Assembly (NCBI GenBank): GCA_013334435.1
Contig: JAAXXP010000003.1
Location: forward strand, 1-59,715
DNA from: Chlorobiaceae bacterium
GTDB lineage: Bacteria > Bacteroidota > Chlorobiia > Chlorobiales > Chlorobiaceae
Direction: 5' to 3'
Length of the DNA: 59,715 bases
The notes beneath the pieces are model-generated. The model had not been told where the DNA came from, made no database searches, and saw only the letters and a list, made by a program, of their open reading frames with translations. Below are positions 273 to 4,935 of the stretch, in pieces. Within the stretch, counting starts at the first letter, position 1, and every line of letters begins with the position of its first letter. Made by a program: the position numbers and the translations under genes.

Positions 273-342
273 TTCGGTTTGATGCTGGAGGAATAGGTCC
301 CGGAGACGGGCTGTTCGGGCTGGGATGAGAGGCGGTTACCTG

Positions 343-633
343 TTACTCAGCCAGAGCCCGTTTGACTGCTTCGGGTTCACGAGCGATAACCTGCAACAGA
401 ATTCTTGCCGACCGTTCCGGCTGGCGGCGTTTTTGCTCCCACTCCTGTACGGCCCGAACATCGAAACCGAATCGAATGGAAAACTCCGGTTGCGTCAGTC
501 CCAAACCGAGCCGGATTGCCTTGACATCGACCTCTTCCGGAACATGCGCAACAAAGCCTTCCGTGATTTCGCCGCGAGCGTAGGCCAGAGCCTGCCGGGC
601 TGATTTGATCAGTTTACTTCCTGCCTTTGACAT
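343..633 (-). CDS. XRE/HTH antitoxin-like transcriptional regulator (NadS/HigA-like)
   Basis: 96 aa; HTH-like ...[60 protein letters not shown]. Confidence 0.75.
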
Positions 634-819
634 GGCGTTTGACTCCTTCTCTGTAGGCTTCGGCTATCGATCCCAAAACCTCTTTCAATTCGTTTCTTTC
701 AGATGTTGAGTGGATGCGGGAAAATTGGTTTGCAGCGTATTGTTGCCTCATTTACTTACGTTCCTAAGCCCCGCGCGCCTAATCTGCATTTTTAAGTACG
801 GGATTTCTAACGACCAAGC

Positions 820-1293
820 TCACCGGCGGCAATGGGGCGCAGCGGAATTGCTGTCAGGTAGAGAATTTTGTTCTGCGCTTTTATTGCCTGATAAGAATCC
901 ATAAATCTTTTCTGTAACAATTTTCAGATTATTGATTTCACATTCCCAAATCACTAAGGAATCCCATCCCATTGCTTTCAGATCGGATTGATGTTTGATG
1001 TCCCTCTCCGTGTTACGTTGGATTTTCTCAGTCCAATATTCCGAATTTGTTTTTGGCGCACGATGGCCTCTTGCGCAGTTGTGCCCATGCCAGAAGCAAC
1101 CGTGAACAAAAATGATTTTCTTGCGGGAAGGAAAAACAAGGTCTGGCTTTCCGGGAAGGTCATTTCTGTGAAGCCGGAAACGGAATCCGAGGCGGTGGAC
1201 AAGAGAGCGAACCTTGAGTTCGGGAGAGGTGTTTTTCTCCCGAACCTGGCGCATGATCCAGCTTCTTTTCTCGCTCGGGAAAATATCCATCAT
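820..1293 (-). CDS. vsr: Very short patch repair (Vsr) DNA mismatch endonuclease
   Basis: 157 aa; RSWIMRQVREKNTSPELKVRSLVHRLGFRFRLHRNDLPGKPDLVFPSRKKIIFVHGCFWHGHNC. Confidence 0.95.
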   Translation of the reverse strand: MMDIFPSEKRSWIMRQVREKNTSPELKVRSLVHRLGFRFRLHRNDLPGKPDLVFPSRKKIIFVHGCFWHGHNCARGHRAPKTNSEYWTEKIQRNTERDIKHQSDLKAMGWDSLVIWECEINNLKIVTEKIYGFLSGNKSAEQNSLPDSNSAAPHCRR

Positions 1294-2216
1294 CGAGCCA
1301 AGTCAATTCTCAGGCTTGGATCGGTTTCGCATTCGTCCACAATGGCGTTGTATTCGGAGATAAGCTGTTCCGCCGTGGTTCGGCGACCAGCCTGGGCGAA
1401 TTTACCGATTTCGTACAGGTTGCCAGCTATGAACTGCTCCACCTCAAAAATATCAAGCCTGTCGGCCATGTCGGCCTGTTCGGCAAGCCCTTCAGCTAAC
1501 ACTGCGCCTCGATAAATGGTGATAATGACGGGTTTCATTCCGTTATCGAGATTTCTTCTACATTTGCGGATAAGCGCTTCGGATGGGGCTGTTGTTACAT
1601 GAATAGCAACATCTTCCACGATGAAATCACCCTCCCGCCCTGATACGTCGTCAGCGACGTTTGCGCCGTGATGCTGGAGCGGCACGTCGAGCAGGAGGTT
1701 CAGTTTCGCGCCAACAAGATGTTGCAGCATAGTCCCAACAAAAGTCGAACCGTTGGCCTGTGCTTGCCGTTTTTCAGCTTGCGAAAGCAAATCCCGAATC
1801 ACAGCGCGGAGCGATTTGGAAGCATCGAACCGCAGGACGAAGGGTTTGCCAGAAAAAAACTCCCTCACACGTTCAATCCACCACGCTTCCAACAGTTCGA
1901 AATCAACGGGGCCTGAAGTATGAAGCTCGTTCAGGAAGGCAACATACTTTCGCATGTTGCCCACGCTGCCTCTGCTGGTGCGTCCTCCTTCCTCGGCAAG
2001 TACGCGATCAATGCCATGTGTTTTCAGAATACATTGCACCGCTGATTTCCCAAGGCCTATGACCTGCCCGCCGCCCTCGGTAAGCAGGGCTTTCGGGTCA
2101 AGCGGCAATCCGAGTTTCTTTCCATGTTGTGTCACGACCAAGGCGACGCATAGCGGTCCTTTGCCTTTCATGTGGTTTTTCTGAGCAAATTCCTTGAGTT
2201 TTTCATTGAAGGGCAT
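1290..2216 (-). CDS. DUF4928-like protein, putative type II restriction endonuclease
   Basis: 308 aa ORF between the C5 methyltransferase and vsr, sharing start/stop overlaps with both; sequence resembles DUF4928 from memory. Confidence 0.65.
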   Translation of the reverse strand: MPFNEKLKEFAQKNHMKGKGPLCVALVVTQHGKKLGLPLDPKALLTEGGGQVIGLGKSAVQCILKTHGIDRVLAEEGGRTSRGSVGNMRKYVAFLNELHTSGPVDFELLEAWWIERVREFFSGKPFVLRFDASKSLRAVIRDLLSQAEKRQAQANGSTFVGTMLQHLVGAKLNLLLDVPLQHHGANVADDVSGREGDFIVEDVAIHVTTAPSEALIRKCRRNLDNGMKPVIITIYRGAVLAEGLAEQADMADRLDIFEVEQFIAGNLYEIGKFAQAGRRTTAEQLISEYNAIVDECETDPSLRIDLAR

Positions 2217-3292
2217 CAGAAACCTCTTTCTTTTATAAGTTCGGCGAGTGGCGAAAGTAGATTCTCCGCAAGATAGCGGGAAACCGGTACGGCTACGGCG
2301 TCGCCCATTGCCTTGTATCCGTCGTTATAGGTGCCGGGAAGTAAGTAATTTTTTGGGGCACCCATCAGGGCCGCCGCTTCCCTGACTGTAAGTAGTCTGG
2401 TCCTGAATGATCTGTTGTCTTTTATGACCAGAAATTGACGGCTGCTACCTCCTTCAGGGGTTCGTAGACATCCGGCGACGCCATCGAAACGCAACTCCAA
2501 AACCTGTCGGCCGTGCCGAATGCGCTTATAACCAGGGAAAACCGCTCTTTCGTTCTGGGATGCAGCTGTCATTTTTTCACGGTGTTTTTCCGGCACCAAT
2601 GCCAACAAGCGCTCCTGTTTTTCAGGTTCATCACATGGCGCGGAAAATTCAATAAAATCGTCGAGTTTCTTTTTTCTTGATGGAGGCTTGGGAATGTCCC
2701 ACCAAATCCAGCCTTTCAAACCCTCTGCTGCTCGGACAATGGAGGCGGGATGGCACCAAGCCGGTTGATTTGCTTCAAATCGTTCGATCGGTATGTTTGC
2801 ATCCACGGCGATGACAAAAACACGCTTTCTTGATTGCGGCACCCAATGGGAGGCGTCAATCACGACCGCGCCGACTTTGTATCCCCGTTCAATCAATGCG
2901 TTATGCAGTTTTCGGTAGTGTTCACCTTGAGCGGCTGAAATCAGGCCGACAACATTTTCAGCGACTGCCAAAGGGGGGCGTTTCGGAAGTTCATCCATCA
3001 CCCTGAGCCACTGCCAGACCATACCGCTTCTTGAGCTGGAAAGTCCACCCATGTTTCCGGCCAAGGAAAGATCCTGACACGGAAAACTACCCCATGACAA
3101 AAGCGCCTGGGGCAAATCAGCGCCATTCACATCCTCGATTGAACCAAGATGGAAAACGTTGTTATCGTGGTTGGCGCAAAAAACCCTGGCCTTTTTTTTA
3201 CAGATGTCGTTTGCCCAGACAGTTTGAAAAAAGCCTTTCAGCCCTTCAGCTACCAGCCCGCTTCCTGCAAAAAAATCTAAACAGGTTGGCAT
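2216..3292 (-). CDS. DNA (cytosine-5-)-methyltransferase
   Basis: Motifs FFAGSG (I), GSFPCQDLSLAG (IV), ENVVG (VI), QSRKRVFVIA (VIII). Start placed at MPTCLDFF; the ORF extends to 3391. Confidence 0.95.
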   Translation of the reverse strand: MPTCLDFFAGSGLVAEGLKGFFQTVWANDICKKKARVFCANHDNNVFHLGSIEDVNGADLPQALLSWGSFPCQDLSLAGNMGGLSSSRSGMVWQWLRVMDELPKRPPLAVAENVVGLISAAQGEHYRKLHNALIERGYKVGAVVIDASHWVPQSRKRVFVIAVDANIPIERFEANQPAWCHPASIVRAAEGLKGWIWWDIPKPPSRKKKLDDFIEFSAPCDEPEKQERLLALVPEKHREKMTAASQNERAVFPGYKRIRHGRQVLELRFDGVAGCLRTPEGGSSRQFLVIKDNRSFRTRLLTVREAAALMGAPKNYLLPGTYNDGYKAMGDAVAVPVSRYLAENLLSPLAELIKERGF

Positions 3293-3876
3293 GGGTTCTT
3301 CTCTGTTTATCGTCACAAGTTTCCGATCACAATTATTTTCACTTTGCTGAGATATATTGCGCATAACATTGATCATATGGTTTCCGCACAAAATAACCGG
3401 TATTTAATTATTAGTCCGTATAAGAGGCCTGCGGACATCTATCAAGACGACCTGTCAGGTCCATGATAATATTTTTTAACTGTCGAGACTGCAATTTATT
3501 CAGGGGTCTTGTGCTGACCCGTACAGGCCCATTTTATTCGCCGTCCATCGACGGAACGGCAGCCACCAGACGAAACCAAATTACAGTGATTGACGCTGCA
3601 TTCAGATAGTCTTGCTACAAGACAAAATAGGTAATCTATCTCAATATTACGTTTGTGCTTGCGCGAAAAAGCGTATGCAGTTTTTGCGTTTTCTTCTTGA
3701 GCAGCCGGTTCCTCATCACGAACACGCCAGTCCTGATCCTCTGAACCGGCAATGCATGGCCGCCGTTATCCGTTTGTAGGAAAATGCTCCGGGGTATCTA
3801 TATTGCTGTTGTAGAGCACGCCGTGCTCTGGTTGCCTGTTCGGGACCCGAATCCTGTAACAAATGGCAGGCCTCCA

Positions 3877-4935
3877 ATGATACATACCTTCAGAACTGTT
3901 TTTGCCGTGCTGCTGCTGGCGCTGGAACTTGCCGGGTGCACCGCATCCTATCTGGCTGTGCAGCAGCGCCCGATTCTTTCGCTGTTGTACGCGACCGACC
4001 GGGCCAGGTCCGGAAGCAGCGAACCGGGGGAGTTCTACAATTCGGATCACGCTCCGCTGCAGTATGGTACCTGCACTGTCTCGGTGCCGCAAAAGCATCA
4101 GATAGCCGAGCTTGAAACGCCGGTGCTGCGCATGCATCCGGAACGTCATTTTGAACTTCTTTCGATCGATACCCTCGACCAGCAGGTTTTTTTCGATAAA
4201 GTGGGGCTCTTCATGCAGCGGACCGGCAGCCGGAAAACTGCTCTGGTATTTGTTCACGGTTTCAACATAAGCTTCGAGGCCGCCGCCCTGCGCATGGCCC
4301 AGATGACCTCCGATCTCGATTTCAGAGGCACACCGCTGGTCTACAGCTGGCCGTCGGACGCCTCGCTCGGTTCATATCGCAAGGACGAACGGAGCGTTGT
4401 CGAAACCGAAGGCAATCTGTACCGTTTTCTTTCCGGTATAGCCGAGCGCTCCGGCAAGGCAGGCATCTATCTGCTTGCCCACAGCATGGGAACCCGTGCC
4501 CTGACCTCGGCTTTCATCATGCTTGCCAAAGAGCGCCCCGAACTGCTTTCCCGTTTCGCGGCCATCGTGCTTGCCGCGCCGGATATCAATGCGGAACGCT
4601 TCAGACGGGAACTGGCGCCATCCCTGGCAGGCAACGGAGTGCCGGTAACGCTCTACGCTTCGCGTTCGGACAATGCGCTCATGATCTCCGAAAATGTCAA
4701 CGGCAACCCGAGGGCCGGTGAAGTCACGGATATTCCGCTTATCGTGCCCGGCATTGAAACCATCGACGCCACCGATGTCGACAGCGATCTTCTCGGGCAC
4801 GCCTATTACAACCGTTCCAGAACGGTGCTTTCGGACATGTTTTATATCATCAGCAGGGGGCTTCCCGCCTCGGAGCGTTTTTCTCTCCAGCCGGTCGATA
4901 CCCCGGAGGGGCGGTACTGGAGGTTCCGTAAATAG
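3877..4935 (+). CDS. Alpha/beta hydrolase lipoprotein (DUF900-like)
   Basis: Lipobox LALELAGC near the N-terminus, VFVHGFN, nucleophile elbow LLAHSMGTR. Start refined from the 3784 ORF. Confidence 0.85.
   Translation: MIHTFRTVFAVLLLALELAGCTASYLAVQQRPILSLLYATDRARSGSSEPGEFYNSDHAPLQYGTCTVSVPQKHQIAELETPVLRMHPERHFELLSIDTLDQQVFFDKVGLFMQRTGSRKTALVFVHGFNISFEAAALRMAQMTSDLDFRGTPLVYSWPSDASLGSYRKDERSVVETEGNLYRFLSGIAERSGKAGIYLLAHSMGTRALTSAFIMLAKERPELLSRFAAIVLAAPDINAERFRRELAPSLAGNGVPVTLYASRSDNALMISENVNGNPRAGEVTDIPLIVPGIETIDATDVDSDLLGHAYYNRSRTVLSDMFYIISRGLPASERFSLQPVDTPEGRYWRFRK

Follow-up and report, generated by a model that had tools for sequence, protein, structure and literature searches.

A mobile C5 methyltransferase–DUF4928–Vsr gene cassette from a Chlorobiaceae bacterium is predicted to encode a type II restriction-modification system

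Three co-oriented genes in a 59,715-nucleotide stretch of DNA from a Chlorobiaceae bacterium (hereafter the window, meaning the whole stretch that was analysed) probably form a mobile type II restriction-modification (R-M) cassette in which a DUF4928 protein is the predicted restriction endonuclease (REase); judging from the sequence, we put the probability of this reading at roughly 0.85. In the mechanism we propose, the C5-cytosine methyltransferase (MTase) would methylate a cytosine within a short target, as its intact motifs imply, the DUF4928 protein would be the cognate endonuclease and cut incoming DNA wherever the same target is unmethylated, and Vsr, going by its family, would nick the T:G mismatches left at target sites by deamination of 5-methylcytosine, thereby limiting the mutational cost of methylation. 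The layout of the locus is that of an ordinary R-M cassette. Such cassettes are common, and what this one adds is a testable REase family, PF16280. Public records still annotate the family as being of unknown function; its members occur in several phyla as well as on plasmids and viral contigs, and the residues conserved at their presumed active site form an unexpected pattern. Solving one member could reveal both an additional recognition specificity and another way in which REases catalyse cleavage. The genes and their junctions are as follows.

2216–3292, minus strand: C5-cytosine DNA methyltransferase, 358 aa (PF00145, TIGR00675, PADLOC and PDB matches; motif conservation)
1290–2216, minus strand: DUF4928 protein, predicted restriction endonuclease, 308 aa (PF16280, PADLOC PDLC03543, AlphaFold)
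820–1293, minus strand: Vsr very-short-patch-repair endonuclease, 157 aa (PF03852, TIGR00632, alignment)
2216, minus strand: 1-nt overlap of the MTase and DUF4928 genes (TGATG), read from the sequence
1290–1293, minus strand: 4-nt overlap of the DUF4928 and Vsr genes (ATGA), read from the sequence

These three open reading frames (ORFs), together with their coordinates and the overlaps of 1 and 4 nt, had been given in a preliminary description of this DNA, and reading the sequence bears them out to the base. At the first junction, GTTTCTGATGCCC, the MTase stop codon TGA (2216–2218) and the DUF4928 ATG have one nucleotide in common, whereas at the second, GCTCGATGATGG, the overlap is the tetranucleotide ATGA. 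The MTase ATG lies at 3292, and the reading frame is open further upstream of it; AAAGAAAGAGGTTTCTG, ahead of the first codon of DUF4928, resembles a ribosome-binding site. Identical gene order and tight spacing are found in relatives from other genera and phyla, in which DUF4928 is 83–86% identical. Just upstream of plasmid MTases there is a small ORF (L009, 4618–4836) that weakly matches ribbon-helix-helix proteins (E 0.02) and may encode a control protein; no counterpart of at least 60 aa was seen in the window.

In family profile searches the MTase matched PF00145 (1.1e-42) and TIGR00675 (1.1e-44, above the curated cut-off), and its matches in the PDB were M.HaeIII and M.HhaI. Because motifs I (DFFAGSG), IV (PCQ, with C72), VI (ENV), VIII (QSRKR) and X (GDAVAV) are all present, the enzyme is predicted to be active, and an alignment showed that the catalytic motifs are conserved among relatives. 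The DNA methyltransferase with intact catalytic motifs that is expected of a type II R-M system is therefore present. A variable region precedes the conserved block RFDGVAGCLRTPxGGSSRQ. Counts of palindromes in loci carrying the cassette revealed only generic avoidance (CTAG, GGCC and GC-rich six-mers), which is uninformative about the target. Among PADLOC models, the protein matched MTase_II (PDLC03243, 2e-83) and DruM2 (PDLC00028, 1e-106). The latter match prompted us to consider assignment to Druantia, which we rejected, as no DruE- or DruH-like gene is nearby: the ORFs that lie wholly or partly within the first 9 kb of the window include neither a large DruE helicase nor DruH.

The middle protein belongs to PF16280, which it matched at 3.9e-54 with 184.4 bits against a gathering cut-off of 25, over model positions 17–306 of 306. 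It also matched the PADLOC REase_II model PDLC03543 (8.4e-41), with nearly the whole protein covered. Since this "Type II restriction enzyme" model matches all 19 of the 19 family members scanned (best 8e-176), the family is already filed as an REase in PADLOC, by inference and under a label that carries neither an activity nor a recognition site. Public plasmid annotations of family members still read 'DUF4928 family protein', and our literature search turned up a single passing mention of DUF4928 and no experiment on any member. The family is nevertheless less uncharted than the earlier label of an uncharacterised nuclease suggests, given the PADLOC entry and the term restriction/modification proteins that has been used for a plasmid version of the trio (PMC6409357).

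Linkage to a methyltransferase is close to universal in this family. DUF4928 searches yielded 30 loci with a full-length gene and readable surroundings, located on chromosomes, plasmids and viral contigs. Having been retrieved with DUF4928 and including close relatives, these 30 loci do not count as independent events. In 29 of them, DUF4928 has an intact C5-MTase as its immediate neighbour in the same orientation. The lone exception (L022) has no MTase close by. Maximum-likelihood trees of the MTase and of DUF4928 each recovered clade A, which includes the window, and clade C, of enterobacterial type, as single groups with 100% support; since both clades appear in both trees, the two genes have largely been co-inherited at the level of clades. 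Two loci (L007 and L039) change position between the trees, with weak support. This adjacency, the clade-level agreement of the trees and PDLC03543 uphold the earlier proposal that the trio is a candidate type II R-M system and that DUF4928 occupies the restriction-enzyme position.

Two divergent loci deserve separate mention. In L022 (7322–9604), a divergent DUF4928 gene (29% identity) has as its neighbours a NOV_C (DUF3883-like) gene and a Vsr frame that is shortened; this DUF4928 gene may be a restriction gene that stands alone or has decayed. The second (L023, 4663–6618) is a decayed relative with an interrupted C5-MTase, a NOV_C-domain gene in the middle and a DUF4928 gene that lacks its N-terminal half. 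As both loci carry the same type of NOV_C gene, it may be an alternative nuclease of this lineage of MTases.

The third gene matched PF03852 (8.8e-31) and TIGR00632 (3.5e-45, 153.1 bits against a cut-off of 97.85). Residues D51, H64, C66, H69, H71 and C73, in E. coli numbering, can all be read in its sequence, and the scores together with D51, H64, H69 and the zinc ligands place it in the Vsr family. Vsr is present in 13 of the 30 full-length DUF4928 loci, and its position varies: it may come after DUF4928 or before the MTase (L035), and in L034 it is joined to the N terminus of the MTase. As an MTase adjoins DUF4928 in 29 of 30 loci and Vsr occurs in 13, DUF4928 is the constant partner of the MTase and Vsr an optional part. 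This amends the earlier emphasis on Vsr and a C5-MTase as the usual pairing. We also considered Vsr itself as the restriction agent, in comparison with Caulobacter, where DNA damage dependent on VsrA has been reported (PMC12907096); this was rejected as the main reading because over half the loci with DUF4928 lack Vsr. The fused form (L034, 4491–6110) is a natural Vsr–C5-MTase protein of 540 aa, with Vsr at the MTase N terminus, followed by DUF4928.

The same trio, or its functional layout, has appeared in several earlier reports. On pNECK1, and in B. cenocepacia VC12308 and S. marcescens AR_0027, a triad was termed restriction/modification proteins of unclear function, with the middle protein described as an AMP-binding superfamily-related peptide (PMC6409357). 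This triad comprises the same three families in the same order as in the window, with DUF4928 58–59% identical, but its MTase is only about 43% identical and it is plasmid-borne. SGI1-related elements of Marinobacter are also listed, without analysis, as carrying a Vsr–DUF4928–MTase segment (PMC9035990); going by the listed families, this is the same gene trio on a mobile element. Burkholderia phages KL3 (EcoRII-like) and AH2 (KasI-like) carry C5-MTase–REase–Vsr modules for which a modify–restrict–repair logic was proposed (PMC3091744, PMC3483164). Both this logic and the functional layout resemble those of the window, although the REases of these phages belong to the EcoRII-C and KasI types and no relative of DUF4928 was found in the phage collection. 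That MTase–REase–Vsr is an established arrangement supports the R-M reading of the trio.

We then turned to the DUF4928 protein itself, for which an AlphaFold2 (AF2) model built from a 17-sequence alignment reached a pLDDT of 86.3 and a pTM of 0.77. The model suggests a largely helical N-terminal half, which bears an EGGRTSRG motif, and an alternating α/β core in the C-terminal half, with the following elements.

1968–1991, minus strand: residues 76–83, E-G-G-R-T-S-R-G, in the N-terminal helical half (E76, G78, R79, T80 and G83 invariant)
1443–1742, minus strand: residues 159–258, α-β-β-α-β-α-β, suspected REase-like core (AF2 secondary structure; MspJI E 0.029, not significant)
1722–1724, minus strand: Q165 in helix 159–175 (QHLVGAK), 97% conserved (H166 invariant)
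1593–1628, minus strand: residues 197–208, candidate catalytic motif D197-F...H206-x-T208 (D197 and H206 invariant in 29/29, T208 93%)

Within the core, the helix with QHLVGAK is followed by a strand (GD197F), a second strand (H206-V-T208), a helix, a strand, a helix and a strand, the later elements being β 228–233, α 235–247 and β 255–258. Across 29 sequences D197 and H206 are invariant, and T208, Q165 and K171 are conserved at 93–97%. By eye, the order of the core resembles the one that the sequence of an Mrr-type endonuclease from a relative implies, which has D and Q-x-K at these places, and Q165 would sit where Mrr-like nucleases bear a helix-borne acid. The EGGRTSRG motif is a possible DNA contact. 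It is because of the AF2 core order and the conservation of D197, H206 and T208 that we propose an REase-like nuclease with a D…HxT site. The model is suggestive of a PD-(D/E)XK-like nuclease core in the C-terminal half, with D197…H206-x-T208 replacing D…(E/Q)xK, and we lean slightly towards this assignment; the candidate active site would then comprise Q165, GD197F and H206-x-T208. The R-M reading of the cassette is independent of this claim about the fold.

Comparisons of structures and profiles qualify the assignment. In Foldseek searches, two AF2 models against the PDB and one against the viral library BFVD gave no match below 0.001. For the window model, MspJI ranked first in the PDB (E 0.029, TM 0.31, not significant); the second model, from clade C, retrieved no nuclease from the PDB, its top matches being methyltransferases and other α/β proteins; and in BFVD an Mrr-domain protein, a Vsr and 'endonuclease-like' proteins appeared only at E 0.1–0.7. 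Comparison of the C-terminal half with Mrr_cat and Vsr alignments by hhalign gave nothing, with scores near those of column-shuffled controls, searches of the PDB with the single sequence and with a profile returned chance matches only, and no nuclease family was found among Pfam matches of 19 members at E up to 10. MspJI and Mrr-like endonucleases, which are QxK variants of PD-(D/E)XK, thus share the helix and strand order of the C-terminal core, but differ in having Q-x-K in place of H-x-T, and resemble DUF4928 neither in the Mrr_cat profile nor significantly in structure (MspJI E 0.03, TM 0.31). The order of helices and strands in the model accordingly fits PD-(D/E)XK without a significant Foldseek match, and the expected acid followed by (D/E/Q)xK is absent, D197 being invariant but followed by H206-x-T208. 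The preliminary description, which had named AlphaFold and Foldseek as a check, is answered in part: the confident model has REase-like topology, yet matches no nuclease significantly. It had seen no classical nuclease motif beyond a possible D/E..K-rich segment; we found no noteworthy D/E..K-rich motif.

The most likely nuclease mechanism for DUF4928, to which we give about an even chance, would be metal-dependent and centred on a REase-like core of the C-terminal half, in which D197 is a metal ligand and H206-x-T208 stands in for (E/Q)xK. That the family as such represents a new catalytic variant of PD-(D/E)XK, with a core devoid of (D/E/Q) and K that cuts by means of D...H-x-T plus the Q, H and K of the preceding helix, we hold more tentatively, at slightly less than even odds. 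A restriction nuclease of another catalytic class is a less probable alternative, be it HNH-like, with H206 acting alongside C219 and N222, or with a wholly new site; it would contest the catalytic claim only and is compatible with the R-M reading. The canonical PD-(D/E)XK lysine is indeed missing, and a short β hairpin followed by a helix with conserved C219 and N222 superficially recalls a ββα-metal site. However, the hairpin lies inside a larger alternating α/β core whose order is REase-like rather than HNH, and MspJI, the top-ranking though not significant PDB match for the window model, is a restriction endonuclease.

Because the protein lacks both the acid and the lysine of the canonical (D/E)xK, an inactive protein or a role other than that of a nuclease also has to be weighed. 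DUF4928 might be an accessory of the MTase, such as a DNA-binding or regulatory subunit or a reader of methylation, in which case the locus would be a modification or epigenetic island with Vsr in a housekeeping role; the missing motif, the largely helical N-terminal half and the lack of a significant nuclease fold match are all compatible with this. We nevertheless regard it as improbable, given that the linkage and clade-level co-inheritance are typical of an REase, that PADLOC labels the family REase_II, and that the REase-like core topology retains invariant polar residues, which is not the picture of a decaying site. We consider it least probable that the cassette is what remains of a decayed R-M system whose restriction gene is inactive: decay has struck the relative L023, with its interrupted MTase and DUF4928 lacking the N-terminal half, and an antitoxin gene adjacent to the window cassette may have lost its toxin, but all three window ORFs are intact, with tight overlaps and the conserved residues kept.

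The distribution of DUF4928 points to mobility of the predicted R-M cassette. The gene was found in about 1% of sampled genomes, patchily across the phyla searched, and in none of the sampled congeners. Its nearest relative is from Chlorobaculum thiosulfatiphilum (86% identical), followed by Desulfobulbaceae and Desulfuromonadales assemblies at 83–85% identity. Further relatives are on mobilizable or conjugative plasmids and, as retrieved with an alignment query, on IMG/VR viral contigs; E. coli genomes, searched with clade C DNA, and the phage collection gave no match. This rarity, the plasmid and viral-contig locations and the cross-phylum identity of 85% between the Chlorobiaceae and Desulfobulbaceae proteins are as expected for a mobile R-M system. 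Comparison with the sister genome G001 delimits the interval that carries it.

309–3770, strand not applicable: variable interval carrying the cassette, between the left flank 1–308 and the right flank 3771–4926 (flanks compared with G001)

The left and right flanks align to G001 at 92% and 94%, respectively, and in the same interval G001 has genes that, named by eye from their translations, encode a CsoR-like regulator, a small haem-motif protein, a radical SAM protein and a REP-associated transposase-like protein. As the sister genome thus holds other genes between the same conserved flanks, sequence comparison identifies the cassette as horizontally acquired mobile cargo.

Other features of the variable interval lie just downstream of the R-M operon. 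A minus-strand HTH antitoxin-like gene (343–633) has a weak MqsA/HigA-type match and is preceded only by a 45-aa ORF on the same strand (614–751), which could be what is left of a toxin gene. The sequence TGCCTCATTTACTTACGTTCCTAA (718–766) matches sequences on either side of the REP-associated tyrosine transposase-like gene that G001 has at the corresponding position (L060, 3509–3531 and 4570–4617), which suggests that a RAYT element was lost or reshuffled at the edge of the cassette.
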